Shown here: positions 1-49,790 of the stretch, in pieces
How positions within the stretch are numbered: the stretch's first letter is position 1
How the letters are laid out: each line of letters starts with the position of its first letter
NCBI GenBank assembly: GCA_021014325.1
Contig: JAJGQC010000611.1
Coordinates: 222,501 to 286,500, forward strand
Reading direction: 5' to 3'
DNA length: 64,000 bases
Origin: Plazaster borealis
Lineage: Eukaryota; Echinodermata; Asteroidea; Forcipulatida; Labidiasteridae
Notes under the pieces: model-generated
The model's input: only the letters and a program-made list of their open reading frames with translations
Told to the model about the DNA's origin: nothing
Databases searched by the model: none
Made by a program: the position numbers and the translations under genes

Positions 1-217
1 GTTAGGGTTACGGGTTACGGGTTAGGGTTAGGGTTAGGGTTAGGGTTAGGGTTAGGGTTACGGTTAGGGTTAGGGTTAGGGTTAGGGTTAGGGTTAGGGT
101 TAGGGTTAGGGTTAGGGTTAGGGTTAGGGTTAGGGTTAGGGTTGGGGTTAGGGTTAGGGTTATGGTTAGGGTTAGGGTTAGGGTTAGGGTAAGGGTTAGG
201 GTTAGGGTTGTTAGACA
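1..217 (+). repeat. Telomere-type (TTAGGG)n array, inward-facing G strand
   Basis: About 35 tandem hexamers, mostly TTAGGG, with variants (TTACGG, TTATGG, TTGGGG and one expanded unit). The G-rich strand reads 5' to 3' into the window. A chromosome end at the left would show CCCTAA on this strand, so this is either an interstitial telomere-like block, the right edge of an inverted piece, or an assembly join. Confidence 0.95.
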
Positions 218-2685
218 TAGTCTCCTATCTTTAGACGGAATTGACAATGTTGCAGTGCAAAACCCCTCACTGCAGAGTAAACACAAAATACGCCTGGGGG
301 GATACCAGAATCTACTTGCCACACTGGCTACCCTCTGGCCCTTGTAAGTTCCCGATCATCGCTGTAAAGAGGTCGACATGGATCTTTACATTTGGGGCCA
401 TTCAGATTTCTTTTCTTTTTTCGAAATGATTGCGGTTGGGTGGGTCTAAAGAAAAATCGAAATGGAGTTTACAATTAAAGTAATTAAGAGAAACAAATTT
501 AAATGTAAGGGTAAAAATACCAAGTAGTCTCTTCCAGATCGTCAATCATGTCTGTGCTGTCTACTATTGTCGATCAAGATTGTTTCGATAGCGAGATGTC
601 AAAAAGTTGCACTGGAAAAGCCAATAAACTCATGAACTGGGAGAACATCGATCTAAAATTATTTGCTTCATTTGAGGTATTTGTTCATCAGTGCATATAG
701 GATATCGTCTGTCAATAATTATTTCAATAAAGAAATTTCGGGTGGGTGGGTGTGTCAACGATTTCGAAACTTGGACGGAGAGAAAATCATGTCTCATAAG
801 CATAATGATTAAATGCAAGCCCACAAGTTTGTTCTGTAAATCAACGATTTGATTGTGTCCCTGGGGTTATTGGCTTCCAATCTGGAGCATTTTGAGGACT
901 AGCCCCTTGAAAAACATGGCCCTACTTTGCTGACAAGCGTCCCCTTTTCCAAGGTAGGCTGACCAGTTTCACTCGTTCTTGCGTTCAGGGCTGTTTTCAT
1001 TTTGGTTGAGCAAAGCTCAAAAAGTCAAAAGCTAATCTATCGGTTCTTAAAAATGAAGAAGCTTAAGTTGTCAGTAATTAAATGTTCTTTGAATGCATGA
1101 GGCTGAGAGATTTGTAGATTTCTTTGGAGTATTCTTTACGCAGGAGGGAGATTTCTCCACAAGGCTAAAAGTTGAACGCAAATTTTTTTCTCTTTCTTTT
1201 CTTGTGGACAAGAGTTTTTCAGGGAATGTAAAGATCTTTGCAAAAGTGTATAGGTAACCGAAAGTGACAGCTGGTATATAGCTTTCTTTAGTAGGCCCAC
1301 CTCTGACCCAAGGGTGGTTTTCGTATAATGTTTTGAGCATCTTGTTGTTCATGCAAAGACACCGCAGGAAGCACGTGATCGGCAGCTCAGCAGCCGCAAA
1401 CTACTAATTATTACTTCATCTTGATCATGTGTTTTCGCAACCTTCTAGATAGGCCCATTCTGCAGCGATTCAAATCTGTGAAGTCATCATCAATGAGAAA
1501 AATCACACTCCAATAATATCGTTTTCAGAATCTAAGTATCAATCGAAAATCAGGCCTGCGAAATAAATCAATTTCATCAGATTTCCTTGAGTAGAAGATA
1601 ATAATGTATAGCCTAATAAAGTTTTAGATAGTGTGACCTAGGCTATGCCTACATTATTTAATAAACTGAGCCATTGCGTTGGTGGTTGTGGCGAGAAGGT
1701 GGTTGTGTACAGTTTTGAGTGTTATGAATGGATTCATTGAACATTCAAAATAAAATCCGTGTTCTTAGAATGTGTGTCATGATTTTTGAAAGTGGTAAAA
1801 ATTGGGCAAATCTGGTCACTAGTCTGGCCAAAATTGTCAAATATAGTGCACATTTCGCACCGTATTACCATAATCCAACTCGTAACCCACCGGTCTCCGA
1901 CCGTCGGGAGGATGGAGGGTTACGATTATCGCGACTATGTCTTTATACGCTTTCGTATGATCCAGTTTGGGGGGTTTTCCATTCAAAATCCACAGACACA
2001 GCCTATAGCCTACCTTTCTGATCCATAACGATCCCCATGCGCCATAAATGTCTGGTAGGCCTACGATGACCAATCTCAAAATAGTATTCTCGCAAAATGT
2101 AGTGCGAGATTGAAAACCAGGTTGAAACGTCGGACCGAAAAGAGCCAAACAGAATATTTTATGAAACTGACAGGTTGATGAATAAATACATTTGATGACG
2201 TTTTTTGTGACACGCTGCTTCCAAGATCGCCAAACAAGTATTAGCAAAAATAATGTATTTAAAATTATTTTATTTTTTCTAAATTGAAATTTTGTTTGTT
2301 AGCGAAAAGTATGGAAATATTAAGTTTTTCAGCAACGAAGATTGTATTTAAAGCCATAACTTTTTAATTGGTCTATTATAATAGGTAGATTGTGCATTGC
2401 TTGTGCGCAACTTTTCATCATCAAAAGCAGACGACAGAATTGCAGAAAAAGTGACCGTCAAAAGTACAGCCCGCCCTCATGAGTTTTGCGTGCAAAATTG
2501 ACAATCTAACCTTTGACCAAAAAATACACGTGCGAACTACTGACTGTACTGACTGTATACATTGCGTTGCAGGTAGTCTGGAGAAGAAGTGCAAGGGTTA
2601 CATGTAATTCTTCACAAAATTTATCGACTAAATCGTTGTAGTTTATGTTTTTGGATGGAATACACGCAATATATGTTGTCTAAAG
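218..2685. other. Gene-poor stretch, nothing recognised
   Basis: Short AT-rich ORFs only, none with a recognisable motif or a convincing splice pattern. No SINE or clear inverted-repeat element was identified. The stretch may be subtelomere-like if the hexamer array is genuine. Confidence 0.5.
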
Positions 2686-2790
2686 ATGAATGAGTTTCGC
2701 TGGGACGTAACGTCAAGTCTTGGTAGACTTGTATCTACCGTTTCACAACCAACAATAATTACGTACTGCCAAGAATTGCTCGCAAAACAG
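2686..2790 (+). CDS. Candidate first coding exon, possibly RMI1 exon 1
   Basis: An ATG opens 35 codons ending exactly at a good donor (CAG|gtaaga), phase 0. The peptide contains VSQPTIITYCQELLAKQ, whose P...C spacing loosely resembles the start of the RMI1 N-terminal helical domain. If joined to the exon at 12837-12983 (also phase 0), the spacing from this Cys to the conserved QWL is within two residues of that in human RMI1 as I recall it. That second exon lies on the opposite strand, so the link requires an inversion. Alternatively it is the first exon of an unknown gene or a chance ORF. Confidence 0.3.
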
Positions 2791-2908
2791 GTAAGAATCG
2801 AATTTGCAGCTCTGCATGTTCATCCAAGTGGTTATCACTCGGCTAGCTATACTCTCATTCTCAGTGGTCTCAGTCTCAGTTTCAACAGATTGTAGGGAAA
2901 AATGTCGG

Positions 2909-3170
2909 TATCCAGCCATCACTTTTAGGCCTTATTTAAAGGGATTTATTTGAGTTTTTTATAATGCCATGGTCTGGATGTTGGACTTTATATTTGGCTA
3001 AAATTCTGCATTCGGATCCAGCCACCACTTCTCTCCCTTATTTAGGTCAAATTATATCATTACCTATGTCCAAAAGGTTAACCCTCAGAAGGAATCTTTA
3101 ATAAAGGGAAAAAGTCCAACATCCATTAAAAAACATCAAATAAATCCCTTAAAAAGTGGTGGCCGGATAT
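2909..3170. mobile_element. Fold-back (MITE-like) element
   Basis: The ends are long imperfect inverted repeats: one starts tatccagccatcactttt and the other is the complement of aaaaagtggtggccggata. Both contain an AAGGGATTTATTTGA core and a TGGATGTTGGACTTT box. A third partial copy of the end begins near 3015. There is no coding capacity. Confidence 0.65.
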
Positions 3171-3445
3171 AGACCCAGTAACTGGGGCGCTGTACTCCTG
3201 TTTCGAAATTTTGACATCATCGGTCGTACTAGCGCCCCAGGAAACGCTCTTGAGAACCCCGCACTTCATTATCTCGACCAATCAGCGCAAACCAAGGAAA
3301 AACAGGCATGGATGCTTGGTGGAGCTTCTGCTGCAGCCCGCTAAACGGCTATTCATGCTTGTGGACTCACGGCACTGGTGTGCTTGTCTCAGCAATCGGC
3401 TGTACATTTGTATGATACATTTAATGTACAAGTAGTAGTAAGTAC

Positions 3446-4032
3446 ACTAGCCCTGGTAGGACGTCAGTCAGTGCCACTGCACTGACGTCCTGGGTATAAA
3501 GATCCTTTACAATGCGAACAAAATTTTGAGTAACATTTTAAAATATTTTTACCTAATTTGAGAAGCTGAAACTCCATTCACTTATTCTTGGTGCCTTTAA
3601 TTACACTTTTGCTGAGTTCAAAACCTATCAAATACATCCATGAATGACATTATTTCCGAAAATAAGTCCAAGTTGTGCACTGGCGCTGCGACTCCGTCGT
3701 GTTGCCGCCCCGAAGAAAAAGCGTTCAGTGTTACGGGTTAGACAGCGCCCTCTTTTGTGGACTTGGTTCCATGTCAGTTGAGGTTGTCGCAACGAATGCG
3801 TCAATTTCCATTTTATTTTCACAATAATGTCATCCAAGGATAAAATTGGCAATTATGAATAGAGCAGGCGTAAGGTTCAGGACACAAGGAACATGTGAGT
3901 CACGTTTCAGCTTCCTCAAAAAGGTAAAAATATGATAAAAAATGGTTATAAATTTTGTTGCAATGCCTGAGGACCTTTATACCCTGGACTCCGTCGCGTT
4001 GTATGCAACGGAGGAGTCCAACCTGGGCTAGT
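3446..4032. mobile_element. MITE-like element with hairpin-bearing termini
   Basis: The outer ends match as inverted repeats (ACTAGCCCTGG left, ACTAGCCCAGG as the complement of the right end) and share GGGTATAAAG further in. Between these boxes each end holds its own hairpin: GGACGTCAGT with ACTGACGTCC on the left, GGACTCC with GGAGTCC on the right. The ~480-bp interior has no ORF I recognise. Confidence 0.65.
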
Positions 4033-4359
4033 CTAAAAAGTGACTAAAGTTGTTCACAGATTAAAAAATACCAAATTGTATTACACAAAATTAAACCTAA
4101 TGATATATTAGCAACAATATTACCTTATAGCTGTACATTTTCATCTCATAAACTTTGCTTTAAACGGGTTAATGTTTGCTTACCTCGACCATTTACTCTT
4201 AGACCGTTCAGAACACATTTTTGTTGTGATTGTCAACATTGTGCTGTATATTTATTTATATTTCTCATCAACAATTAACAACAGAGGGCGCTGTGTAAAA
4301 ATCGATGTTATTTGCAATACCAGACCAGATGCCTGAAAAAGGCTTCAAGCCTGAAGTAG

Positions 4360-4541
4360 TTTTCAGATTCCAATATTATAGTGAGAAATTACTTTTCTCA
4401 AAATGACTACGTTACTTCAGAGGGAGTCGTTTCTCACAATGTGTATCAACAGCTCTCCGTTGCCCGTTTCCAAGTAAGTTTTTCATGTTTTTATGCTAAT
4501 ATATTTTGAGTAATTACCAAAAGTGTCCAGTGCCTTTTTAA
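4360..4541. mobile_element. Partial TTAA-type MITE
   Basis: This matches the right half of the element at 23323-23693: the box agagggagtcgtttc, the ccaacagctctc-type box, and an end that reads gtgtccagtgccttttTAA. The left half is replaced by unrelated sequence, so the copy is truncated. Confidence 0.65.
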
Positions 4542-5254
4542 TTATGTGGACTGATTGACCCACATGTGCCATAACATGGAAACCATTTGCATTTGTTGTC
4601 TTTGTGGAAAAGTTTCCGCAGCATGCCTCCAACTTCTTTTCGTTTTTTTTTTTCAATCGATTGTGTAAATTTCAAAAATGTTAAATTATTTATTTTTTTT
4701 TCATAGGGGACTGGTTAAAAAACAATGGAAATTTTGTTAAATCCTAGAAAAAAAATGGCTTTTTCCCACACTCCCCTCTTTCTCTATTCTCTCCCCCCAT
4801 CGTGTCTCCTCTCTCACCTGGTCTCCATGTGTCTAACTGAATCTGTATCTGCTGGAAGAAATGGAAAATTACACAACTCTTACTAACTAAATATTCATCA
4901 AGCAAAATGACCCTCCAACATCACTGAGCCCTGGTCACTGACTACCTGTAAAAGCACACATACATTATTGTCACATATTAAAATATACCATTACGTTAAC
5001 CACCAATTCTGAGCCCACCCCAGACTGTGAAATAGATACCACCTCAGTAGCCTGGGGCATTAGTCTGGCTGGTTTTTGGAGTAGGTTCCAGCCTAAATGT
5101 TTATATTACAATTACTTTAATGGCTGAATGGAGACACAGTAAAAATGAAGACAAGAATCAAGAGATTTTGGTTAATGGTAAACTCATCTATAATGCCATA
5201 TGTAAAATGCACTTGTAAAATAACCATTTCGTTACAGTACAAATCTGATCTTAG

Positions 5255-5575
5255 CGCATTTTACAATACCGTATCAGTCGCTTTACATTAGTGCCCTGGT
5301 CATTGGGCCAATAACATTCCTGAAATCTTTCTCAGCTCCTGGGGAGTATACAGCCCGGGCAGCTGTGGCGCTCAGAAGGCTTTTTCAAACACAATATCAA
5401 CCTCTACCCTCGCAGGTACCCATTTATACCCCTGGGTGAAGAGAAGCAATTACAGTAAAGTATCTTGCTCAAGGATACAAGTGTCATGACCAGGATTCAA
5501 ACCCACACTTCGATAACTTAACCATCGGAACTTGAATTCAATGCTCTAAACCGCTCGGTCGTGACACCCCAAAGT
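5255..5575 (-). mobile_element. tRNA-derived SINE
   Basis: On the minus strand the head contains a Pol III B-box-like tgggtttgaatcc after an A-box-like region (gagcggtttagagc). It continues with gtgtcatgacacttgtatcc-like and gagcaagatacttt boxes, then a body ending in the ctcctaggagctgag-like tail also seen at 22685-23030. The head-to-tail order is the same as in the plus-strand copies, so this is one copy of the same SINE family. Confidence 0.75.
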
Positions 5576-5639
5576 TTCTACCTGAAAGCTCACTGGTTAC
5601 AATCATCATCATTTAGCGGTCGCAACTGAGATTCCGTTC

Positions 5640-5965
5640 TCAATGTCATGCCAGAGGTGTTTATCCATCATCATGTTTGGAAGGTCTCTGCCAATCTTGT
5701 CGATGTAATTGGGGGGTCATACGTCCTCTATTAGGGCATGGAAGTCTCCAAGATAACACATCTGGGATCACCTGGTCGATAGCACAATAGCAGTGGCCAG
5801 CAAAGCGGACTCTGCATTGAGTAACAGTAGCAGAGGTTGGTGGAATGTCTCCAGAAATCTGTTCTCTAGTCTTGTGCTCACGCCATGAGATGTTCTGGTT
5901 ACAAAGGTCATACCATTGAGTGTCATTAGAAGCGGTCTGGCTCCCAGAGTCAAACTAGTTGAGCC
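5640..5965 (-). pseudogene. LINE reverse-transcriptase ORF, C-terminal fragment
   Basis: Minus-strand translation gives NISWREHKTREQI, then CRVRFAGHCYCAIDQVI, then WRLPCPNRGR and NYIDKIGRD. This is the tail region that follows the RT domain in many invertebrate LINEs: a W-R-x-H block, a RRxRFAGHxxR-type block, and a GRxxxxYIDxxxRD-type block. The catalytic part of the RT is absent. Reading frames change within a C run near 5716, so the copy is broken there, either by decay or by a base-calling error. It lies against the 97-bp tandem repeat at its 5' side. Confidence 0.7.
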
Positions 5966-6180
5966 ATTTCTTGTTTGCTTCTGCAGCTGTGTCCTCTGTA
6001 TCTCAGTCACCATTGAGTGTCATTAGAAGCGGTCTGGCTCCCAGAGTCAAACTAGTTGAGCCATTTCTTGTTTGCTTCTGCAGCAGTGTCCTCTGTATCT
6101 CAGTCACCATTGAGTGTCATTAGAAGCGGTCTGGCTCCCAGAGTCAAACTAGTTGAGCCATCTCTTGTTTGCTTGAACCC
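5913..6180. repeat. 97-bp tandem repeat, about 2.7 units
   Basis: The start ccattgagtgtcattagaag recurs at 5913, 6010 and 6107, an exact 97-bp period. The units derive from the 5' edge of the LINE fragment. The third unit diverges after gttgagccat and runs into the 121-bp repeat that bounds the next block. Confidence 0.9.
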
Positions 6181-6255
6181 AGTACACTTATCATTAAGAG
6201 AATGAGTTAGCCCCAGTGTTTTGGGCACGGTTGGTCTAGTAGATTGTGCCGCCTC
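6135..6255 (+). repeat. Left 121-bp direct repeat bounding the 6.3-kb block
   Basis: This sequence (starts ctcccagagtcaaact, ends gattgtgccgcctc) is identical by eye over all 121 bases to 12565-12685. It contains LINE-edge sequence joined to the middle part of a SINE. At this copy the SINE stops abruptly at 6255; at the right copy the SINE continues into its tail. Confidence 0.92.
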
Positions 6256-6718
6256 TAGTCAGGTAGCTTATGGATGGAATCGTGACCGACTGGCCCAAAG
6301 CACCAAATTTGGTAGGTACCTTCTATAGGCCCCAGAAATAAATTTTAGAAGGGGTGACACCAAAAAATATTTTTGGAAAGTACCTAATTTGCATAATTTC
6401 AAAATGGCTGCAAAATCCTATATTTAAGCAGTAATTTCGGTACATTTTTATCATTTGAAAGCAAAAGTTATTTTGAAATATTTACTTTGGTGGTTTTGTT
6501 TACATATCCTGCACTTAAACAACATTAATCAACTGATAATGTGCCTAGGTAATTATGTGTAGTCAGAAATCCAAGATGGCCACTATAATAATAAATTAAG
6601 TATCGTGGTTCGAAATATGCAAAACAATTATATTTTGTTGTTACTACCGTCTGGGATTGCATGTTGAACTATTAAAACAGTCCCATGTGTTGAAAATTGG
6701 TTTTGACTGACAATATCT

Positions 6719-6985
6719 TCAAAGATCTTGGCAGCTTCCGCTGCACTTGCAAAGCGCTGTGCAAAAAAGCCCAGCTTTGCGGCATCTGCAGTTTCTGGAG
6801 CACTGCGGCTGTGTTTGGCATCCGCACTTCAACAGCTCTCTGCAGACACTGGCTGCCTCTGGAATGAGTGTCCAACCATATCCCTCGGGCAGTGGGGCAT
6901 GCTGTTCAGACTTCAGGCTTGTTGTCCAGATGCTTGCCTGATACAGGGCCCGGTTGGAATGCTGCAGAAGTGCCGCCTGCCACAC
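6719..6985 (-). pseudogene. C-terminal Cys-rich CXC-like segment of the same gene
   Basis: The segment reads ALYQASIWTTSLKSEQ, GYGWTLIPEA, CRELLKCGCQTQ, then CRCRKAGLFCTALCKC followed by SGSC and a stop at 6719. The spacing of nine or more cysteines with a basic K/R before AGL resembles tesmin/TSO1-type CXC DNA-binding domains. That similarity, and therefore DNA binding, is inference. The ending with a natural stop suggests this is the true C terminus. Confidence 0.6.
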
Positions 6986-7062
6986 CCATAAAAAGAGAAG
7001 GAAAAGAAATGTATTATTTCAAAGAAAGGTAATGCTAAAATTCATCATTTGGTTTAAGTTCA

Positions 7063-7437
7063 ATGATTGGACTAAAATATACAAACCTGTGTTGGGGTTT
7101 TTTTTCCATCGTGTGTTTTGCCTTTGAGAACAGTTCTCTTAGTTCGTTTACTCGCTCCACTGGACTTGTTTTGTCATACAAAACGCAAGTGAACCTTTCC
7201 AGCAGCTGGAAGTCAGGACTGGCAATCTCCAGAGTCTCAAACGGATGTTGTGAAATTGAGACGAATGCTTCACTGACGTCAAGAAACGAATTCCATGCCT
7301 CCCATGCCGACTTTTTTCCTTTTCCAAGAAACTGGGAAGTTGTATCAGACCCAGTGAATGCATGGAATGGTGGGAGAGCCTTACATTTTGGTTCCTTGTT
7401 TGCTTGTTGCAGATCGCATTGACGCTAAAGTACTGGT
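7063..7437 (-). pseudogene. FHAFTGSD block of the same gene
   Basis: Minus-strand translation in the best frame gives PFHAFTGSDTTSQFLGKGKK, then SAWEAWNSFLDV and VLYDKTSPVERVNELRELF. The HxFTGSD motif follows the D-x-D motif of the nuclease-like segment, where FEN/XPG enzymes have a conserved G-x-D after their second acidic cluster. Downstream the frame reaches the segment with the Cys-rich tail after about 80 bp of unassigned sequence. Confidence 0.5.
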
Positions 7438-8340
7438 ACTTTTTTTCCCATGCCAAATTCAACCCATAAGTCGGTTCCAGGGTGAGAAGTGAGGAGGTCG
7501 AAGAACACACCAACAAGGATGACAATGACGTCTGTGTCTACAGTTCGGACAAGAATTGTTTTGGATCCATTGATCAGGGCATCTTGGATGTGAATACAGA
7601 TTCTTGAATCTGCTTCTTCATGGTCGCAAGGTGGCAATGGTTTGCTAGAATTTCTTGAAACTACAGACTTTCCTGCAATGCATAAAAAGTACATGTATTT
7701 AGTTTATTCAAATCCACATGTTTAAACAAAACTCTGGTACATGTATTGTATTATTCAGGGTATTCAAGGTAATGCGTACATTTTTATTCTTTTCATTGGA
7801 CGTACCTGAAGTAATGTGGACCTCCTTTCCAGCAGGAAACTCACTGTTCGATACCTTCTCAGTTAGTAGTTGAAATAGCTCTTGTTTATTGGTGGGATCC
7901 TGCAGAAAGTTTGGAAAGTTTGTTGGTAGTTTAGTGCTCCCTGCAACCTTCTTCCTTACACCTTTTCCTCTCTTCTCCCTCGTAGATTGCTTCAAACTAT
8001 CTGTCTTGTATGTATCCCACACTATGTCTACTCGGTTGCTGTTTCTCAATTGTTGTTGGATCCAAGGGAGAAATAACTTTTTAGCGTATTTATTGAATGT
8101 ACTAGTTTGATTTGCAGGGAGTGCGTGGACGATAGCAGCACCGTCAAAAACCTTGGCATGGTAGTATGACGGAGGGTCTGGCTGATCTGTCGTCAGAATT
8201 TCTATCAGATCAGATTTTTTCGTCGGCAGGCGGAGCGCTCCATACACCGAGAGAGAAGGTGGCCAAGGATGATTTTCATGGGCGAAGAATTCTGTTAAGT
8301 CTCCATCACGGTACTGACTTGCAATGTAGAGCTGACTGAA
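7425..8340 (-). pseudogene. FEN/XPG-like (PIN-fold) nuclease segment of the same gene
   Basis: The segment reads LFSQLYIASQYRDGD, then KVFDGAAIVH, DIVWDTYKTD, SLKQSTREKRGKG, later HEEADSRICIH and RTVDTDVIVILV. The order resembles flap-endonuclease/XPG proteins: an early acidic DG, a D followed by a basic LKxxxxxxR stretch, then an E-A-D/E pair and a D-x-D pair that bind catalytic metals. The resemblance is by motif only. The frame breaks at A7 near 7445, where the reading continues as YQYFSVNAI in another frame. Confidence 0.55.
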
Positions 8341-8356
8341 AAGATTGCAATCAGTT

Positions 8357-10480
8357 TTATACTTGAAAGCTGCTGCTTAGCACTTGTGTTTGGCTTTGAT
8401 TTGATCGCTTCCAAATGGCCAAAGAATTTCTTTTGATGGGCTTATGAATGCTGGTGCTTCGGTCTAAAATCACATCCTTAACATACTTCTGGTACTGGGA
8501 AATGCCAAGGGCTTCAATTGTGCGGACTGTGGAAACAACATCTTTATTAGCACAATTTCGAGTGTCCAAAGCAAGCAGTTCTGAAGAATCTTCAAGGAAA
8601 GGGTTACCCATTTCTGAGATTGCTTCAGTGAGGCTCTTCACTTGTTTCCTGAAGACCTCTTGCGTAGTCATCCCCTGTTCGTGCTGCTTGTAAATGTTGA
8701 TGTTTTCTCCGTCCATGAACTCGTCCTCAAATTCCTTCAGCAGTCGTGCTTGCTGTGGACCTGAAACCATCCATCTTCTGAAGGCAGCTGGGTTTTCGGT
8801 AAGTCCTACCACGCCACCAGATCCCTTTACCTGATCGTTGTTTTGTTCATGACCTTGGTCAAGAGGCATGCAAGAGAACTTGTGTTGAGTCTTTTGAAGG
8901 ACCCACATTTGTTTGACCTCTTCTTTGATATTTTGTGGTAGAGCCTTCATGTCTCGGATGTGAATGGGGATCCAGCGAGCGTAGTTGGTGTGATCCAGAA
9001 CAAAGAACCAAGACACCAATGCCTCCAAAGCCTCCACAAAGAGATCAAAATCTCGGATACGATGAGCACGGATGAAAATCAGCACAAGTGTTTCATATTT
9101 CAAGATGATATCCCAGTACTGAAATGTAGGGCTTGCCGTAATCATCTTCTGCTTCCACGTTTCAAAAGAAATCCCACTGTCAGACTTCACCTTCAGTTGC
9201 CAAGCATCTCCCTGCAGATTTGCAAGTGTTAGGGCTGTAACTTGATGACTGTGCCTGGTTCTAGTGAGGTGGGCAGCTTTGAGGAAGGAGTCTGCTGTAC
9301 CTGAGGAGGCCACACCAGCTTCACATAAGGCAGCGGTCTAACCAGATCCATCCAGAAAGTCTCCAATTGTGTTCCATAGAGCCATCTCAATGCGGAGACC
9401 ACCAAACATTACTACAAAGTGCTTTTCTCCCAGTGTCTCGGGCCAACGCCACTGAACAAACTTGGCAAGGGCAAACAGTGGTTGATCCACAGCAGTTAGC
9501 GGTGTTTGGCATGGATTGAGATATGTTGTTATCTGCCTTTGGATCTCCATCCCATGCTTGATCATGGCAATGGTTGCAGCCTTTTCGTAGAAAAGGGGCA
9601 AGAGGGCGTTCAGTGCAGCAGGATCTGAAGGAGGCATCTGAGTTGAAGCATGGAAGGCAGACCAGGCAATGTAATCTTCTTTCTCGAGCTTGTCCTTCTT
9701 TAAGAGCGAAATAGATCTGTCTATCCAGGAGACTTCTGTAGCTCTTGCATTTTCAAGTTTACCTTCAACGGTACTGAGAGAAGTTTCTGGCACTTCAAGT
9801 TTAGAAATCTGGCAAGCCACAGCTGGAACAGTTGTGTAATCCTCAGGGAGTGAATACTTCCTTGACGTAGAGCAAATTACAATAGGATCTCTGAAGGTTC
9901 CAGAGCAGGATGCGGTGGGAAACTGAAAAATACTTATTCCAGTACCATGGAAGGAGCCCTCGGCTGTTGTAGAGGAAGGGTTATGATCTATGTTATCCAA
10001 AGCCCCAACTGTGAACAGACCTTTTCTTAGATTTGCAGGGCAGACAAGTTCTTCTTCCTGAAAGCGCTTGCATACAGCATTTGCTAGGCAATTTTCTAGG
10101 TCAATAACACGGTCGTAGCTGACACTGATGCCCAGTCTATACAGGATGTTCATTATTTTTTTGCATCTCGTGAGTGTATGAATACATAACCCAATGTAGA
10201 GAGGAAGAGGTGGCTCCCTTTCTTTGGAATGCCTGCTGTTTTTTGCCACAGAAGCTTTGTTTTTCGCATTGAAGACGACCATCTGAGCTATGGAAAGACA
10301 AACCTGTGACTCAGTGATATCTTGGTGCTTTACATTAGGTCCATTCAGCAGCATGGCAACTAGTGTCTTAAGGCTTGCCGGAACAGAATTTCCCTGGCAG
10401 TTATGCTCAAAATTCCCGGTAAAAGGGAGGGATTCCCAATCAAATATGTCTTGTCTGATGCTTTTAACAAGTCTAACCAT
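8357..10480 (-). pseudogene. Core segment of the FEN/CXC gene, split by one TAG
   Basis: Two ORFs (9338-10480 and 8357-9313) are in the same frame and are separated only by a TAG at 9338-9340. The flanks read GDFLDGSG and TAALCEAG. Other family members, as I remember them, have Trp here, so a TGG to TAG change is likely. The core holds FGGLRIEMALWNTIGDFLDG, SSGTADSFLKAAHLTRTRH, DHTNYARWIPIHIRDM, DQGHEQNNDQVKGSGG and AFRRWMVSGP. These are conserved blocks of this unnamed family with no known activity. The strand is otherwise open for ~700 codons, which argues against ancient decay. Confidence 0.7.
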
Positions 10481-10508
10481 GGACAGAGCTTCTGACGTAT
10501 AATCTCAT

Positions 10509-11354
10509 GACTTCATGGCATCACTGAGTAGTTTCCTCATCCCATCATTGAATACAAGAAGTGTATTTCTGCCGTCAGATTGCTCCTGGCACTCCTCTAT
10601 GAAGTGCTCTAGCAATCGGTTCTTAAGTCTGGTTTTATTTATGGTTTGTCAACTCCAAGGTCTCGCAATCGACTTTCATATAAGTAATGCAACTCAGTGA
10701 GTTTGAAGAGGAATGTGCCATTTTCTACACTGCTCTCAATGTAGGAAACAAGTTCGGCAAATACTCTTCCTTCATTTCTCCGCTCAAAGCTTGTGTTTGT
10801 GTCAATGCTTGCTCTCTGTACACTTCTATAGCGAGTCTTGTATGTAGATAGGCAATCAAAATGGTATTTAGCCTCAATTGCTATGAGGTCCCTCCCGAAA
10901 TTCTGGCAAGAAGAGCTGTATCTTTAAGTTTTGTGGCCATCATTCGAGGTGATTGTCTAGTCTCATGGTTGAACAGTTGTGCAATTTTCCAGATGTCCGA
11001 GAACAGAAAATGCATGATTCTTTATCCGGGTGCCAATTACTTTGCGTTTAGACTTTTTATTCACTGATTCTTGTTGGGAGTCACATGTACGTTTTTTGAC
11101 TCACGACGCCTGCAAAGAAGTGTACTAGTAAACTTGAGGCGGCAAGCTTTGTGCCACTGGGTACGGTTTTCCAGAAGTTTCTCGGCCGTTACTCCCTTCA
11201 AATCAATTTCTACTGGTAAGGCTTCAAGCTCCTGAAACTCACGTGCGATCTCAATAAAAGCTGTATAAACCTTAAGACCATTTTTCTGGAGGCTATCTGC
11301 TGGGCATTTCAAGTCTCCGCCTCCTTTGCCACAAATGATGTAAGATTTATCCAT
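10509..11354 (-). pseudogene. N-terminal Cys/His segment of the FEN/CXC gene
   Basis: Translation starts with an ATG at 11352-11354 and SYIICGKGGG. A WHKACRLKF motif follows about 75 codons later (first possible Cys/His pair). A second motif, CIFCSRTSGKLHNCS, is followed by LKDTALLARISGGDLIAIEA and KYHFDC. The pattern CxxC...H..C...H..C suggests zinc binding. The next stretch includes RVFAELVSYIE and LLEHFIEECQEQ. Frames change at GGG near 10900 and at CC near 10650. An in-frame TGA sits near 10508, just before the long core ORF. Confidence 0.6.
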
Positions 11355-11359
11355 TGTTA

Positions 11360-12560
11360 ATAGTCTGGAGAAGAACGTGGAAACAGGGTTCTTTTTTACT
11401 TTATTTAGTTGGAAATCACAGAATATTCGTCCGTTTACATTTTGGTGGGTATTAGGCTTTACATGTGAAAAATTGCTGTAGGCCTATGTGCGAGATGCAA
11501 CCTGTTCCTTAATGGTCGGAAAGTGATTGTGGCCTGCTATAATATTTATAACAGCATGGACCATAACAATAAATCTCAAGTTTATTTTCTATAATGTTTG
11601 TACCAATACATCAGATCTCAAAAAGAAAAAGCTGTCACCTACACTTATGTTATAATATAGTCGGTTACCTATGATACGTAGGCCTACTCCAGGATGAAAA
11701 ATGGCATGATTGGCAACTCAATTTGTAAAGTTCATTATACAAATTTATTGTGAGCACTTGCCTCTCACAGTGTACAGAAAATAGTTGTTTCTATAACACA
11801 ATGTACCCCCCTGTGCTAAATCTAACTAACTATATTACATGTACATGTATCAACATTGCACTTGCATGCATGCCCCCATTTTCATTGTGTTACAATGAAG
11901 GCCTAAATACAAAAACTGAGAGTTTGGCTGGACATTGGTCTGATAAACTCTGAAGAAGTTTTGTAGATGATTCATTTCTTTTCAACTTGCCAATGAGGTA
12001 AATTTGATAGTGGATTAATATGTTCGGATTCCTCTTTACTTACCAATGCTTGGAACAGTGCTTGAATAAGATACCTCATGCAGAACTCCAAGTAGTCAAG
12101 TGAAATAATCGTAGTACCAATCTCTTGAGGGCACTTTTGAACATTTAAAAAAAACTTCTGCATAAATACATAACAATTTTCTGATCAAAGGTGAAGGTTT
12201 GCTAATGTCATTTTTTTTCTGCGTATGACACAAGGCAGTTTACAAATATGATGTACTATTAAAAAAAAAAGTTATAAAAATTCGTTTTTAGCTATAAAGG
12301 TATGGTTTTATAATAAGACAATTACATGTAACAACTGATATGCTGATTAGCTAAAATATCAAAGTGAATACGCCAGGAAAGATAAAAACAATTTTTGAAT
12401 TGGCAAATTGAAGCCCCCCTCCAAATTGTAGGTGCAAATAATAAAACAAATATATTAAATATACACTGAATGTTTATAAATGAATTATTCATCAAATCAC
12501 TAATGATTATGTTGTAATTAGTCTTAATTAGTGATAATTAGTTATAAGCATCAGTCTACT
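11360..12560. other. No gene recognised (inside the 6.3-kb block)
   Basis: AT-rich sequence. One minus-strand stretch at ~12045-12140 reads IISLDYLEFCMRYLIQALF and ends at a good donor (gtaagt), but it matches nothing I know and has no convincing acceptor. Otherwise I see nothing. Confidence 0.4.
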
Positions 12561-12564
12561 TTGA

Positions 12565-12685
12565 CTCCCAGAGTCAAACTAGTTGAGCCATCTCTTGTTT
12601 GCTTGAACCCAGTACACTTATCATTAAGAGAATGAGTTAGCCCCAGTGTTTTGGGCACGGTTGGTCTAGTAGATTGTGCCGCCTC
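12565..12685 (+). repeat. Right 121-bp direct repeat bounding the 6.3-kb block
   Basis: Identical by eye to 6135-6255. Here the SINE part continues without interruption into its 3' body and tail. Confidence 0.92.
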
Positions 12686-12832
12686 ACCTTGTAAACTCTT
12701 TCAAGGTGCTATGTAAATGGGTCTCATCATTCAAACATAGCTCTGCATACCTGTCATTTAAAAAAGAAGTGGTGCGAGAACCCTGTTGGGTGTGATAAAG
12801 CACTTTGAGTGTCAAAGTTTGTTCATAGATTC
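12600..12832 (+). mobile_element. SINE 3' half
   Basis: The sequence runs gaacccagtacacttatcat, then gattgtgccgcctc, accttgtaaac, ggtgctatgtaaatgggtct and gtgtgataaagcacttt. These boxes occur in the same order in the complete copy at 22110-22515. The tRNA-like head is missing. Confidence 0.75.
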
Positions 12833-12836
12833 TTAC

Positions 12837-12983
12837 CTGTAGAGCATAATTGCCAGAGAGTAGTGTTTTCTTCTGCTGTGATATATTCTTAGATAGAGAC
12901 GACGCTGCAATTTCTTTGAGATCCGAATTTAGCCACTGATCGTTAACGTTCTGTTTCATCTCATCTGAAGTTACATTCTGACC
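12837..12983 (-). CDS. RMI1: RMI1 N-terminal (DUF1767-type) exon, opposite strand to the rest of RMI1
   Basis: This minus-strand exon of 49 codons, phase 0 at both ends, runs from an acceptor (catcag|GGT) to a donor (CAG|gtaaga). It encodes MKQNVNDQWLNSDLKEIA and ends LLSGNYALQ. RMI1 N-terminal domains have the pattern QWL..DL followed by a G-x-Y-x-LQ end at about this distance, and human RMI1 has FEQWLLTDL and GFYALQ. The domain helps RMI1 bind topoisomerase III alpha. All other RMI1 exons here are on the plus strand, so this exon is inverted relative to them, either genuinely or by assembly. It could also belong to a second, partial copy. It directly abuts the SINE and 121-bp repeat. Confidence 0.6.
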
Positions 12984-13318
12984 CTGATGTTAAGCAAAAA
13001 TGAAAAGTTGTTAAAGTGTGGTTCAAAACATGGTTGTGCCCAAATAACAGATTAAACGCATGATAACCAGTTATCCACCTGGTTCACAAAAAAGAATAAC
13101 AAGTATTAAAGTTTATCAAAGAGGAAATCTGCAAACAGGCCTTAAATTACACCAAGGCTACAGAGACCATGGCCTTTGTTGCCCCTGGTCTTGGCCTTGG
13201 TGCCCCTTCAAAAGTTTCTCATAGACTTTAAGATTTTCCAATATCCTCAAAGATGAAATTCTTGACCTGAATGTTCCAAGATACACATACAATTGCACCG
13301 TAATTTCTTGCGTATACT

Positions 13319-13334
13319 ATAAGACGCGTCTTAT
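13319..13334. other. Perfect 16-bp palindrome
   Basis: ATAAGACGCGTCTTAT is its own reverse complement. Related ccttatct boxes follow to 13395, suggesting the end of an unidentified transposon. It lies between the inverted RMI1 exon and the first plus-strand RMI1 exon. Confidence 0.7.
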
Positions 13335-13483
13335 CTGACTTTCAACGGTCTGAAAAAATCACTGTGCCTTATCTACTGGTGCGCCTTATCTGATATCCAT
13401 AATTTTCCTTTACCGTTGGAGTGAAGATAAACAACCTTCATCAAATCCATTCAAAATGTATAATATTTTACACTGTATGTCAG

Positions 13484-13619
13484 CAGATCTTGGTTAGTGG
13501 AACCGTGCAGTGTCGACGTGGTGTACTTTTACTGACAGCTCAGAATGTTCAAGTTCTTGGTGGTGATGTGGAGGCATTACAACAACAAAAATGCCAGCTC
13601 AAATTCTGTCAAATGTTCT
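13484..13619 (+). CDS. RMI1: RMI1 exon, OB-fold 1
   Basis: Acceptor tgtcag|CAG (or three bases on), donor TTCT|gtaagt. It encodes ILVSGTVQC and RRGVLLLTAQNVQVLGGDV, matching the RMI1 block that reads RLGVLLL...NVKVLGGEVDAL in human. After EALQQQ the conserved reading (AQILSNVL) is in another frame. One extra A in the A5 run at 13587-13591 would restore it and also fit the phase of the next exon, so a one-base deletion or base-calling error is likely. Confidence 0.8.
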
Positions 13620-16600
13620 GTAAGTAAACATTTCAACAGGTAACTCTTCACTTAACCACTTCACGTTGGTATTTTTAAAAATTGTCCGTGCCCACCGCGG
13701 TTTTATTTTTCAGAACTTTTTAGAGCTTCTTGAGTAATCGCTTTCCTTTGAAAATATCGTTGCCATGATGAAACCCTGACTTGACAAGGGAAAGAAAAAG
13801 ATTCCCATAATTAATTCTGTGATTTGATGTTGTCATGTGAGCAATTGAGTAGCCACTCACCATGATTTGCAGAATCTCAGCCGTGATTCATGGCTGATAA
13901 TAAATTGGTGCTCATGCAAGCCTCTACATTGAAATCCTGCCTGACAATTTTTTTCCCAGAAACCAATGTTGTACGCTTTGCCTTGAAATTTTGTTTTATT
14001 CTGTTCTTAAACACAGAGGAGTGGATGGGAGTCAGGTCAGCCAGCAGGAACCAGCTCAAACTGCATCAAACCGGCGAGAACCAGTCATCCAAGACACCAT
14101 TGATCTCACAATAGACACCAACAGCAGTGATGACAATGTAAACAGCAATGGACTTAGAAACAGGGGTACCGATCAAGGCAAGTTGAGATCGATCAGCTCT
14201 CCTTTATCTCAAAAATCTCATCACATTTTTATTTTATTTTATTTATGATCCCTTTCAATTTGTCTGAAACATCAGATAAGAGTCTTCAGACTCAATAAAA
14301 CAAATTTCAATCTGTCAAGCCACCTGGAAGCCATCTGGATTTATTACAGCCAGGAGTGGCTATTAACCTGAGGCCTAGAGGTTGTTCACAACTCCTGTGG
14401 TAATTCTGAAAGGGGAGGTCATTGATATCATTGATTTTAGTCAATGAGGACTACTAGAGCAGGCTAGTCGAAACAGACCAATCAAGATCTTACTCCGCGG
14501 CAGTGAAGTTAATAACGAGAAGTCCCCTCGATCCACTAAGCGAAAGTAGTAGTCCTGGCCGATTTCCTACTTCCGCCCAGGTAGTGTATTTAATAAGCAG
14601 GACAGATTCTTCTCAGAACTTGGTAGTCTCCTGAATTCTGAAATCCACTTCGTGGCAGTAGAATAAATAGCAAGACATTCATGTTGTTTTTATACCTATG
14701 TGATGGTCGCACAAATTGGGGCGTGATTGGCAAATGGGCTTTCTAAAACATAAGCGTCCTCATCCTAAATTTTAATTTTGTTTCAATGTTATTTTCAACA
14801 AATTATTTGTATTATCCCTTTAAACTCGACCCCATTTTTCCCCACAGAACTTCGGTCACCCCTGACCGATTTTTTTTTTTTTTTAATAATCATTTTTCAC
14901 CCAATAACTACCGCCCTCTGTTGGCCAAGCTTGGCATCATTAGCAAGCTGAAAACACAAGCTTTCCAATGGTAGTATGGTACCCTATGTGCAACCTTTAG
15001 AAATATATATACAAAGCGAAAAAGAAACCTGACTATTGCTTTTTCTAACGTGTCAGCTGTTATGCCTGTGTGTTGTATACGTTGTACACGTTGTACACGT
15101 TGTACGGTGACTTTCGTGCAAATTCTGCTCTTGATCTCATACAAAATGTTACATTTCAGCTTCAAAATGCCCAAAAAGAAGCCTGAAAAGAAGTGAAATG
15201 TTGTCCAAACTTCCAGGAGACAATGTAGAGAAGAATAAGTCTTGGGTTTTGGGGGTTTTGTAGATGAAAACGGTGATCTTAACGAGGAAGAAATGTTGAA
15301 CGAAGGCATTGATCCAACCACAGAGTGCTGGTAATGTACATGTAAAAGCGAAATTCTGGGAGGTAAAATTAATATTTTGTCTTTATTTTTTTACCTCTAT
15401 AGAAAGATCAGATGATGTAGATTTCAAAAACGGCAATCAAAATATTTTTGAACAAGTGGAAATTACCAAATTTACATAAAATATGAAAAAATTGGAATTT
15501 AAATTTAAAAATATGAATTTAATAATGGCGGTAATTTTTTTCCAAAAGCCTGTGGGGGGTAAAAGATTTGCTAGAAATATAGCACTATATGTAAGCTTTA
15601 AAATGATGCATAATGTTAACGTGTTTCCAAGAAGTAAATCAGTCATTTTAATAAATAACCTGAGCACATGCAAAATTTTAAAAAACGGGGTCGAGTTTAA
15701 AGGGTTATAGAAAAATTGAAATTTTATTTATAACAAATTGCTATGGGTGTTTTCAGTTTGAAGAATTTTGTATTAATAGGATTTTAAAAGATTTGATTTC
15801 ATAGCAAAATTTAGTATTCAATTGAGTTGTTTTCTCTATTTGGATATTCGCGAGGCTTGCACGGTCTATAATAGTAAAATCAAGATTAATATTCTTTAAC
15901 CCTGATGCAATTAATACATCTATTTAAAGGGTCTGTATACGTTTGGTAATTACTCATAAAATTAATGGCAATAAAAATTTACTTGGTAAGAAGTACAGCA
16001 GCTTCTGATAGTACAAAGCACTTTGAGAAATATTTCAGCTTGAAGTAATGTGGTTATGGAAAAAGATATCAGTTTTTATCCAAACAAATTTGAATCTTGG
16101 AAGCGTTACTGACAGTAACAATTCTCAGATTGTGTATTACAATGCAGATTATTCTTCCTGCATGGACAAAACCACTCCAGTTTGGCAATATCTCAAAAAA
16201 GCTACCACCTTTTGAAATGAAATTTTCAAAGGTTAGTTTTATGGTATATCTACATTTTGATAGGATTGAAACAAACAGTGGGTTTCAATTACCAAACGTA
16301 TACAATCCCTTTATTATGGAAGTTTGATAATGTCTTATACAGTGATACCCAGCAGTGATGACTTTGGGGATGGCCTGGATGCCTTAATGTTGAATGAAAT
16401 CCAACAGATTGAAGAGATGGACAGGATACAACAAATGGCAAGCAATGTAAGGCAATATTATACTCTTATGAACTGGCATAATTCGGTCACTAGAGCACGT
16501 CTATCCCCCTCGAGGGAATGTGTCATGGCCGAGGTGTCTAGTGCACCAAACCCAAGCTCAATGTAAGGCAATGTTATACTCTTATGGACTGGCAATGAGG

Positions 16601-44149: not shown

Positions 44150-47100
44150 GAACAAGGTTGCCTCGAGCAAGGAGTTTGGGTTTAAAAAACTACATGTACA
44201 CAAGGTGTTAAACTTGTACATATGTAATTTTGAGTGATTCCAGACAATTTCATTTTTGGGCCAATTTTTATAAATGGGCCTTTTTGAGCAAGGATTTTCA
44301 GTTTAGAAAACTGCAAGGGGTTAAACTTGTGTTTTGGAGCGATTTCAGACAGTTTTATTTTCAGCCAAATTTTTATAAATGGGCCTTTTTGAGCCAGGAT
44401 TTTCAGTTAAAAAAACTGCAAGGGGTTAAACTTGTTTTTGGAGCGATTTCAGAACATTTTATTTTCAGCCCAATTTTTAAAAATGGGCCTTTTGAGCCAG
44501 GATTTTCAGTTTAAAAACTGCAAGGGGTTAAACTTGTATTTTGGAGCGATTTCAGAACATTTTATTTTCAGCCCAATTTTTAAAAATGGGTCTTTTTGAG
44601 CGAGGATTTTCACTTTACAAAACTGCAAGGGGTTAAACTTGTATTTTGGAGCGATTTCAGAACATTTTATTTTCAGCCCAATTTTTAAAAATGGGCCTTT
44701 TTGAGCCAGGATTTTCAGTTAAAAACTGCAAGGGGTTAAACTTGTATTTTGGAGCGATTTCAGAACATTTTATTTTCAGCCCAATTTTTAAAAATGGGCC
44801 TTTTTGAGCCAGGATTTTCAGTTAAAAACTGCAAGGGGTTAAACTTGTTTTTGGAGCGATTTCAGAACATTTTATTTTCAGCCCAATTTTAAAAATGGGC
44901 CTTTTGAGCCAGGATTTTCAGTTAAAAACTGCAAGGGGTTAAACTTGTTTTTTGGAGCGATTTCAGAACATTTTATTTTCAGCCCAATTTTTAAAAATGG
45001 GCCTTTTGAGCCAGGATTTTGGTTTAAAAACTGCAAGGGGTTAAACTTGTTTTTTGGAGCGATTTCAGAACATTTTATTTTCAGCCCAATTTTAAAAATG
45101 GGCCTTTTGAGCCAGGACTTTCAGTTAAAAACTGCAAGGGGTTAAACTTGTATTTTGGAGCGATTTCAGAACATTTTATTTTCAGCCCAATTTTTAAGAA
45201 TGGGCCTTTTTGAGCGAGGATTTTTACTTTAAAAAACTGCAAGGGGTAAAACTTGAATTTTGGAGCGCTCTCAGAACATTTAATTTTCTGCCCTAATTCT
45301 TAACTTGGGACTTTAGGTGCCAGGATTTTCCGTTAAAAAAACTGCAAGGGGTTAAACTTGTATTTTGGAGCGATTTCAGAACATTTTATTTTCAGCCCAA
45401 TTTTAAAATGGGCCTTTTTGAGCCAGGTTTTTCAGTTTAAAAACTGCAAGGGGTTAAACTTGTTTTTGGAGCGATTTCAGAACATTTTATTTTCAGCCCA
45501 ATTTTAAAAATGGGCCTTTTTGAGCCAGGATTTTCAGTTTAAAAACTGCAAGGGGTTAAACTTGTTTTTGGAGCGATTTCAGAACATTTTATTTTCAGCC
45601 CAATTTTTAAAAATGGGCCTTTTTGAGCCAGGATTTTCAGTTTAAAAACTGCAAGGGGTTAAACTTGTTTTTTGGAGCGATTTCAGAACATTTTATTTTC
45701 AGCCCAATTTTTAAAAATGGCCGTTTTTATCCATGATTTTTGATATAAAAAAAAGCAAGGGGTTAAACTTGTTTTTGGAGCGATTTCAGAACATTTTATT
45801 TTCAGCCCAATTTTTAAAAATGGGCCTTTTGAGCCAGGATTTTCAGTTTAAAAACTGCAAGGGGTTAAACTTGTTTTTGGAGCGATTTCAGAACATTTTA
45901 TTTTCAGCCCAATTTTTAAAAATGGGCCTTTTGAGCCAGGATTTTGGTTAAAAACTGCAAGGTGTTAAACTTGTTTTTGGAGCGATTTCAGAACATTTTA
46001 TTTTCAGCCCAATTTTAAAAATGGGCCTTTTTGAGCCAGGATTTTTGGTTAAAAACTGCAAGGGGTTAAACTTGTTTTTGGAGCGATTTCAGAACATTTT
46101 ATTTTCAGCCCAATTTTTAAAAATGGGCCTTTTGAGCCAGGATTTTTGGTTAAAAATCTGGAAGGTGTTAAACTTGTTTTTTGGAGCGATTTCAGAACAT
46201 TTTATTTTCAGCCCAATTTTTCAAAATGGGCCTTTTGAGCCAGGATTTTTGGTTAAAAACTGCAAGGTGTTAAACTTGTTTTTGGAGCGATTTCAGAACA
46301 TTTTATTTTCAGCCCAATTTTAAAAATGGGCCTTTTTGAGTCGGGATTTTTGGTTAAAAAACTGCAAGGGGTTAAACTTGTTTTTTGGAGCGATTTCAGA
46401 ACATTTTATTTTCAGCCCAATTTTTAAAAATGGGCCTTTTTGAGCCAGGATTTTTGGTTAAAAAAACTGCAAGGGGTTAAACTTGTTTTTTGGAGCGATT
46501 TCAGAACATTTTATTTTCAGCCCAATTTTTAATAATGGGCCTTTTTGTGCCAGGATTTTTGGTTTAAAAAACTGCAAGGGGTTAAACTTGTTTTTTGGAG
46601 CGATTTCAGAACATTTTATTTTCAGCCCAATTTTTAAAAATGGGCCTTTTGAGCCAGGATTTTCAGTTAAAAACTGCAAGGGGTTAAACTTGTATTTTGG
46701 AGCGATTTCAGAACATTTTATTTTCAGCCCAATTTTAAAAATGGGCCTTTTGAGCCAGGATTTTCAGTTTAAAAACTGCAAGGGGTTAAACTTGTTTTTG
46801 GAGCGATTTCAGAACATTTTATTTTCAGCCCAATTTTTAAAAATGGGCCTTTTGAGCCAGGATTTTCAGTTTAAAAACTGCAAGGGGTTAAACTTGTTTT
46901 TTGGAGCGATTTCAGAACATTTTATTTTCAGCCCAATTTTTAAAAATGGGCCTTTTGAGCCAGGATTTTCAGTTAAAAACTGCAAGGGGTTAAACTTGTT
47001 TTTGGAGCGATTTCAGAACATTTTATTTTCAGCCCAATTTTTAAAAATGGGCCTTTTGAGCCAGGATTTTCAGTTAAAAACTGCAAGGGGTTAAACTTGT

Positions 47101-49790
47101 TTTTGGAGCGATTTCAGAACATTTTATTTTCAGCCCAATTTTTAAAAATGGGCCTTTTTGAGCCAGGATTTTTGGTTAAAAACTGCAAGGGGTTAAACTT
47201 GTTTTTGGAGCGATTTCAGAACATTTTATTTTCAGCCCAATTTTTAAAAATGGGCCTTTTTGAGCCAGGATTTTTGTTTAAAAACTGCAAGGGGTTAAAC
47301 TTGTTTTTGGAGCGATTTCAGAACATTTTATTTTCAGCCCAATTTTTAAAAATGGGCCTTTTGAGCCAGGATTTTTGGTTAAAAACTGCAAGGTGTTAAA
47401 CTTGTTTTTGGAGCGATTTCAGAACATTTTATTTTCAGCCCAATTTTTAAAAATGGGCCTTTTGAGCCAGGATTTTTGGTTAAAAACTGCAAGGGGTTAA
47501 ACTTGTTTTTGGAGCGATTTCAGAACATTTTATTTTCAGCCCAATTTTTAAAAATGGGCCTTTTGAGCCAGGATTTTCAGTTTAAAAACTGCAAGGGGTT
47601 AAACTTGTTTTTGGAGCGATTTCAGAACATTTTATTTTCAGCCCAATTTTTAAAAATGGGCCTTTTGAGCCAGGATTTTTGGTTAAAAACTGCAAGGGGT
47701 TAAACTTGTTTTTGGAGCGATTTCAGAACATTTTATTTTCAGCCCAATTTTTAAAAATGGGCCTTTTGAGCCAGGATTTTTGGTTAAAAACTGCAAGGGG
47801 TTAAACTTGTTTTTGGAGCGATTTCAGAACATTTTATTTTCAGCCCAATTTTAAAAATGGGCCTTTTTGAGCCAGGATTTTCAGTTTAAAAACTGCAAGG
47901 GGTTAAACTTGTTTTTGGAGCGATTTCAGAACATTTTATTTTCAGCCCAATTTTTAAAAATGGGCCTTTTGAGCCAGGATTTTTGGTTAAAAACTGCAAG
48001 GGTTAAACTTGTTTTTGGAGCGATTTCAGAACATTTTATTTTCAGCCCAATTTTTAAAAATGGGCCTTTTGAGCCAGGATTTTTGGTTAAAAACTGCAAG
48101 GGGTTAAACTTGTTTTTTGAGCGATTTCAGAACATTTTATTTTCAGCCCAATTTATAAAAATGAGCCTTTTGAGCCAGGATTTTCAGTTTAAAAAACTGC
48201 AAGGGGTTAAACTTGTTTTTTGAGCGATTTCAGAACATTTTATTTTCAGCCCAATTTTTAAAAATGGGCCTTTTGAGCCAGGATTTTTAGTTTAAAAACT
48301 GCAAGGGGTTAAACTTGTATTTTGGAGCGATTTCAGAACATTTTATTTTCAGCCCAATTTTTAAAAATGGGCCTTTTTGAGCCAGGATTTTCAGTTAAAA
48401 ACTGCAAGGGGTTAAACTTGTTTTTGGAGCGATTTCAGAACATTTTATTTTCAGCCCAATTTTAAAAATGGGCCTTTTGAGCCAGGATTTTCAGTTTAAA
48501 AACTGCAAGGGGTTAAACTTGTTTTTTGGAGCGATTTCAGAACATTTTATTTTCAGCCCAATTTTTAAAAATGGGCCTTTTGAGCCAGGATTTTCAGTTT
48601 AAAAACTGCAAGGGGTTAAACTTGTTTTTGGAGCGATTTCAGAACATTTTATTTTCAGCCCAATTTTTAAAAATGGGCCTTTTGAGCCAGGATTTTTGGT
48701 TAAAAACTGCAAGGTGTTAAACTTGTTTTTTGGAGCGATTTCAGAACATTTTATTTTCAGCCCAATTTTTAAAAATGGGCCTTTTGAGCCAGGATTTTTG
48801 GTTAAAAACTGCAAGGGGTTAAACTTGTTTTTTGGAGCGATTTCAGAACATTTTATTTTCAGCCCAATTTTTAAAATGGGCCTTTTTGAGCCAGGATTTT
48901 TGGTTTAGAAAACTGCAAGGTGTTAAACTTGTTTTTTGGAGCGATTTCAGAACATTTTATTTTCAGCCCAATTTTTAAAAATGGGCCTTTTTGAGCCAGG
49001 ATTTTTGGTTAAAAAAACTGCAAGGTGTTAAACTTGTTTTTTGGAGCGATTTCAGAACATTTTATTTTCAGCCCAATTTTTAAAAATGGGCCTTTTTGAG
49101 CCAGGATTTTTGGTTAAAAAAACTGCAAGGGGTTAAACTTGTTTTTTGGAGCGATTTCAGAACATTTTATTTTCAGCCCAATTATTAAAAATGGGCCTTT
49201 TTGAGCCAGGATTTTCAGTTAAAAAAACTGCAAGGGATTAAACTTGTTTTTTGGAGCGATTTCAGAACATTTTATTTTCAGCCCAATTTTTAATAATGGG
49301 CCTTTTTGAGCCGGGATTTTTGGTTAAAAAACTGCAAGGGGTTAAACTTGTTTTTTGGAGCGATTTCAGAACATTTGATTTTCAGCCCAATTTTTAAAAA
49401 TGGGCCTTTTTGAGCCAGGATTTTTAGTTAAAAAAACTGCAAGGGGTTAAACTTGTATTTTGGAGCGATTTCAGAACATTTTATTTTCAGCCCAATTTTA
49501 AAAATGGGCCTTTTTGAGCCAGGTTTTTCAGTTTAAAAAACTGCAAGGGGTTAAACTTGTTTTTTGGATCGATTTCAGAACATTTGATTTTCAGCCCAAT
49601 TTTTAAAAATGGGCCTTTTTGAGCCAGGATTTTCAGTTTAAAAAACTGCAAGAGGTTAAACTTGTTTTTTGGAGCGATTTCAGAACATTTTATTTTCAGG
49701 CCAATTTTTAAAAATGGGCCTTTTTGAGCCGGGATTTTTGGTTAAAAAAACTGCAAGGGGTTAAACTTGTACTTTTGACTTATTCAGGAC
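44150..49790. repeat. Satellite array, ~101-bp unit, about 55 copies
   Basis: Each unit contains ggagcgatttcagaacattt, tattttcagcccaattttta, aaaatgggcctttt, gagccaggattttcag and aactgcaaggggttaaact. The centre (CCCAATTTTTAAAAATGGG) is a near-perfect palindrome. Units vary by 1-3 bp, mainly in T and A runs. The variants ttcagtt/ttggtt and ggggtt/gtgtt recur in clusters, suggesting higher-order blocks. Edge copies (44240-44420, 45230-45340, 45720-45770, 49730-49790) are more diverged. Not coding. Confidence 0.95.

Follow-up and report, generated by a model that had tools for sequence, protein, structure and literature searches.

In a 64,000-bp stretch of the genome of the sea star Plazaster borealis (contig JAJGQC010000611.1, positions 222,501–286,500; contig C515 of assembly G000 in our numbering, 560.6 Mb in 717 contigs), which we call the window, a 6,309-bp block at positions 6256–12564 lies between two identical 121-bp repeats. 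We show that the block is a real, relatively young and well-bounded insertion, and that it belongs to a transposon type already known, of which it is a defective copy, rather than being an undescribed autonomous unit. Very probably, it is an AcademX-like transposon with an exact left end, a truncated right end and a 121-bp duplication made by repair, whatever the timing of this repair. When a block lies between long and perfect direct repeats, these can pass for the target duplication of a new element. Empty and filled paralogues, together with one complete copy, resolve such a mistaken target duplication.

The two repeats (6135–6255 and 12565–12685, both on the plus strand) agree at 121 of 121 positions and are thus identical, as the first-pass annotation had claimed. 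The pair can be extended 3 bp leftwards to 124 nucleotides at 99% identity. The 121 bp are the junction of a 97-bp array unit with a repeat resembling a short interspersed nuclear element (SINE). The 97-bp tandem array (5912–6174, plus strand, 2.7 units) is part of the target and stops where the SINE-like repeat starts, at 6175. A comparison with two further copies in the window indicates that the left copy of the SINE-like repeat is cut at 6255, inside the repeat, and that the right copy is whole (12605–12803, plus strand); its first 81 bp recur at 6175–6255. The 121-bp repeat starts and ends with CTC, so that the flank to the left of the block ends in CTC. In four paralogues (L025, L026, L027 and L028), matches to the 97-bp unit are more numerous than in the window; thus, the target of the insertion itself seems prone to tandem expansion.

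We searched the genome with the 121 bp and scored 40 of the 527 first-look candidates, so all match counts from this search are lower bounds. The search gave at least 91 matches, of which at least 15 were full-length, and 9 of these 15 were exact. Three pairs, each with its members about 6.43 kb apart, account for six of the 15; they lie in the window, on C601 (L015) and at 406–416 kb of C515 (L016). The remaining nine are single (C686, C643, C600, C601 at 226 kb, C515 at 70 kb, C577, C555, C254 and C687). All nine single-copy sites (L009–L014 and L017–L019) were compared with a model in which the locus is collapsed to one copy without the block. It turned out that in each of them the left flank leads into a single 121-bp copy and this into the right flank, with a few substitutions and indels of 2–4 bp; two tandem copies were found at none of these empty sites. 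That 9/9 empty sites fit the collapsed model is direct evidence that the block is a genuine insertion accompanied by a target duplication of 121 bp, and it speaks against a pre-existing tandem duplication. The earlier proposal that the collapsed sequence restores continuity is thus upheld, but the supposed edge of a long interspersed nuclear element was not confirmed, the sequence immediately to the left being the 97-bp array.

From one filled site to another, the flanks differ at 7–8 of about 3,130 bases, and the closest empty site is separated by 23 of 3,132. In an unrooted tree of twelve sequences, built from flanks 4625–6134 and 12686–14310 (some rows were shorter), the filled sites are united by a split with an ultrafast bootstrap of 100. 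Pairwise, the three filled blocks show 11–14 differences in 6,298 gap-free columns, and the six 121-bp copies at these sites show none. Since the filled sites group together, there was one insertion event, afterwards copied with its surroundings by segmental duplication. Insertion ages taken from these distances are relative only. The filled copies are also distinguished by many private one-base indels, some of which may be residual assembly errors. The region around the insertion is a segmental duplication with at least 12 occurrences (C515 at 70, 229 and 408 kb; C601, C686, C643, C600, C577, C555, C254 and C687), on contigs of 43–560 kb. Among these twelve, flank divergence is about 0.2 to 2.7%.

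A genome search with 6256–6705, in which 13 of 13 candidates were scored, defined the left end of the element. The matches at C13:7467143 (98%), on C9 (83%), C5 (75%) and C18 (71%) all start at the base equivalent to 6256, and for this reason we take 6256 as the true left terminus. The C13 match opens a full-length copy (L039, C13:7467143–7473774) of 6,632 bp, running from TAGTCAGGTAGCTTA to TAAGCAACCTGACTA, which itself has one stop and frame breaks. It carries an imperfect terminal inverted repeat of about 167 bp, with 14 of the 16 first bases matching, and is flanked on either side by ATA, a 3-bp target duplication seen in this one copy (n = 1). In the window, the left terminal inverted repeat (TAGTCAGGTAGCTTA..., 6256–6422, plus strand, inner edge approximate) aligns over about 167 bp with the right end of the C13 copy in reverse complement. 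Separately, C4:15913538–15914764 holds ten matches to approximately bases 4–51 of the left terminus within 1.2 kb, apparently a tandem array made from the transposon end.

The block (annotated on the minus strand) corresponds to positions 1–6346 of the C13 copy, from which it differs at 74 of 6,298 aligned bases. Compared with that copy, it lacks the last 286 bp of the element, including the right inverted repeat. Another sequence, C13:4702497–4702819, matches element positions 6302–6632 at 82%, spans position 6346 and ends exactly at the right terminus. Since the two other copies in which this region was seen (2/2) run past the right edge of the block, the block is truncated, rather than the C13 copy having an extra piece. 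More copies of the right end may exist. Of the two boundaries regarded as exact in the first-pass annotation, the left one therefore stands as a terminus and 12564 does not. The expected copy with defined ends and different flanks was found on C13, but it has only the left edge in common with the block, its right end lying 286 bp farther. At the left junction of the window copy, target sequence GCCGCCTC abuts the element precisely at its terminus. At the right junction, the block reads TTTGA/CTCCCAG and the C13 copy TTTGA/CTTTAAAG, so that a 2-bp microhomology, CT (12565–12566, plus strand), is common to the element continuation CTTTAAAG and the target CTCCCAG. Thus, the window copy holds one of the two termini, and has a 121-bp duplication instead of one of 3–4 bp.

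The block carries a transposase-nuclease pseudogene (about 6719–11354, minus strand), colinear with an uninterrupted relative of 1,479 amino acids (P0001). A protein search with the joined gene pieces, in which 7,989 candidates were scored and 120 matches listed, gave 205 proteins at E ≤ 1e-3; relatives of up to about 1,480–1,600 amino acids are colinear with the block. The best relative, P0001, has 50% identity over 99% of the query. Species named among the listed relatives are Haliotis rubra, Myxine glutinosa, Oculina patagonica, Capitella teleta and Nematostella vectensis. One listed relative comes from a Sedimenticola metagenome-assembled genome; our guess is that this is possibly host contamination. 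Two gaps, at about 7677–7803 and 6980–7094, are likely introns, with edges read by eye as GT/AG.

The encoded protein is a DDE transposase of the P-element/hAT/RAG-like fold fused to an XPG/FEN1-like nuclease, with a cysteine-rich C-terminus. For the predicted structure of this nuclease-fused DDE transposase, the best structural match is the P element transposase. A sequence-profile search of solved structures gave no relationship to P element, hAT or RAG1-Transib transposases, and the Pfam matches were to DUF6589 only, below threshold. The DDE transposase region (approximately 8381–10780, minus strand) has a predicted RNase H fold with a large helical insertion, and it keeps the residues aligned to D458, D630 and E843 of P0001. 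In the XPG/FEN1/EXO1-like nuclease region (approximately 6880–8205, minus strand), seven acidic residues were checked, and all are kept in the window copy.

The window copy has no open transposase reading frame: it is interrupted by two in-frame stops and several frameshifts. Both stops (9338–9340 and 10505–10507, minus strand) are common to the three filled copies. The first hits an invariant W of the family, and around the second the copies do not differ. Of the invariant columns with coverage, the window copy has changes at 3 of 128 (one of them being the stop), L015 at 3 of 127 and L016 at 4 of 133; all three retain the proposed catalytic residues wherever these are covered. Because so few invariant columns are changed and these residues are kept, the gene seems to have died recently. 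With a broken transposase gene and a missing right terminus, the window copy is not autonomous. The idea that the block carries a nuclease-like gene able to mobilise it holds as regards the nuclease domain, and fails as regards an autonomous gene.

The nuclease of AcademX is of the XPG type, and P and hAT elements make 8-bp target duplications. According to PMC10045372, target duplications are 3–4 bp in AcademX and 9–10 bp in AcademH and are tied to the encoded nuclease or helicase. The element studied here resembles AcademX in that one large protein, found in the C13 copy and the protein relatives, combines a DDE transposase with a nuclease; the C13 copy also has terminal inverted repeats, and its 3-bp duplication (ATA, n = 1) falls within the range given for AcademX (PMC10045372). 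The window copy differs from AcademX in having no right terminus and in being flanked by 121 bp. The nuclease fusion, the cysteine-rich C-terminus and the 3-bp duplication distinguish the element from P element, hAT and RAG1-Transib. By its architecture, the element is thus filed as an AcademX-like member of the Academ superfamily. Judging by the single complete copy, the usual target duplication of this element is not one of 121 bp.

How could a truncated element acquire a 121-bp duplication? The transposase would have joined the left terminal inverted repeat to the target between 6255 and 6256, or an excised element whose left end was intact would have been captured. Either is the simplest account of the left joint, because a fragment cut at random would be expected to stop precisely at the terminus in only about one of several thousand trials. 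On the right, a break would have removed the last 286 bp of the element. The joint on this side looks like the work of end-joining: the broken end may have been joined to the target by the host through the 2-bp CT microhomology, 121 bp upstream of the left junction. The 121-bp stretch would also have been kept or copied on the left side, and for that reason is present twice. Its second copy would be a product of repair synthesis. At insertion, it could have come from fill-in of long staggered ends or from a primed copy; otherwise, it could have been copied from a sister or an empty site, the latter template serving after one-sided excision. There is experimental support that small tandem duplications can arise when complementary overhangs are filled in and then end-joined (PMC8355091). 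The likeness to such duplications at staggered breaks is that a broken stretch is directly duplicated before end-joining. The difference is that here a transposon with one intact terminus lies between the copies, and that 121 bp exceeds the 43-bp overhangs that were induced in that study (PMC8355091).

The first alternative concerns timing only. It is a variant of the same core reading, and we regard it as possible, at somewhat below an even chance, which is included in the probability of the core reading and not added to it. A complete element would have inserted with a 3-bp CTC duplication, and a later abortive excision would have cut its right end with the loss of 286 bp; the right flank would then have been extended by 121 bp off an empty sister or paralogue and end-joined to the stump. 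This two-step course explains why the left end is exact and the right one truncated, and also explains the microhomology. Empty templates are plentiful (nine were found), and a left flank ending in CTC is compatible with a 3-bp duplication. However, none of the three filled sites holds a complete element, and one extra event is required. We slightly favour repair at the time of insertion over later abortive excision, the two being inseparable with one assembly.

The remaining explanations fare much worse. An undescribed mobile unit ending at both block edges and making target duplications of about 121 bp, along the lines of the undescribed unit for which the first-pass annotation saw a candidate here, would agree with the exact edges, the gene with nuclease and transposase folds and the copy with different flanks. 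We consider it very unlikely, given the AcademX architecture and the C13 copy, which goes on past the right edge to a matching inverted terminus and a 3-bp duplication; the independent right-end copy crosses that edge too. Equally hard to credit is a target that already had a 118–121-bp tandem duplication at whose junction the element landed. The tandem array at the locus and the CTC at both ends of the repeat speak for it, but the nine single-copy empty sites do not support it, the exact landing would be a coincidence of about 1 in 118 by our estimate, and the truncated right end is left unexplained. Still less probable is the integration by homology of a circle holding the block and the 121 bp. 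It would yield direct repeats of the homology, but the 121 bp join an array unit to a SINE-like repeat, all 15 of the listed full-length matches, a lower bound, fall within this paralogue family, the C13 match of the block stops at 12566 with no 121-bp match reported there, and the empty sites again give no support. An assembly artefact is the least credible, for although overlap errors can give identical repeats and the private indels suggest residual errors, three filled sites on two contigs have the same structure with their own substitutions, beside nine empty paralogues.

With repair-made duplication of a truncated AcademX-like transposon as the preferred reading, a relatively dated aberrant insertion makes the repair of AcademX-like intermediates testable. 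One speculation, which we think improbable, goes further: the fused flap-type (FEN1/EXO1/XPG-like) nuclease would mean that AcademX transposition proceeds via a branched or flapped intermediate. One-ended insertions, exact at one terminus, truncated with microhomology at the other end and accompanied by a long local duplication, would then recur in the superfamily; the locus described here, together with its empty paralogues, would be a clean fossil of the process.

Several other features lie in the window. ARAGORN, run with the bacterial setting, called a transfer RNA (tRNA-Leu, anticodon caa) at 61997–62082 on the minus strand; since an Rfam scan of the window at gathering scores found nothing, this call may be a tRNA-derived repeat. 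Positions 1–209, in the interior of contig C515, hold 34.5 copies of the telomere-like repeat GTTAGG. A satellite-like array at 44228–49770 contains about 54 copies of a 102-bp unit with 94% matches. A likely long terminal repeat retrotransposon occupies 53749–61515, flanked by exact repeat segments about 6.4–6.5 kb apart; its domains, identified by eye, are gag-like frames with zinc knuckles (57423–58706) and an integrase (59157–59993).
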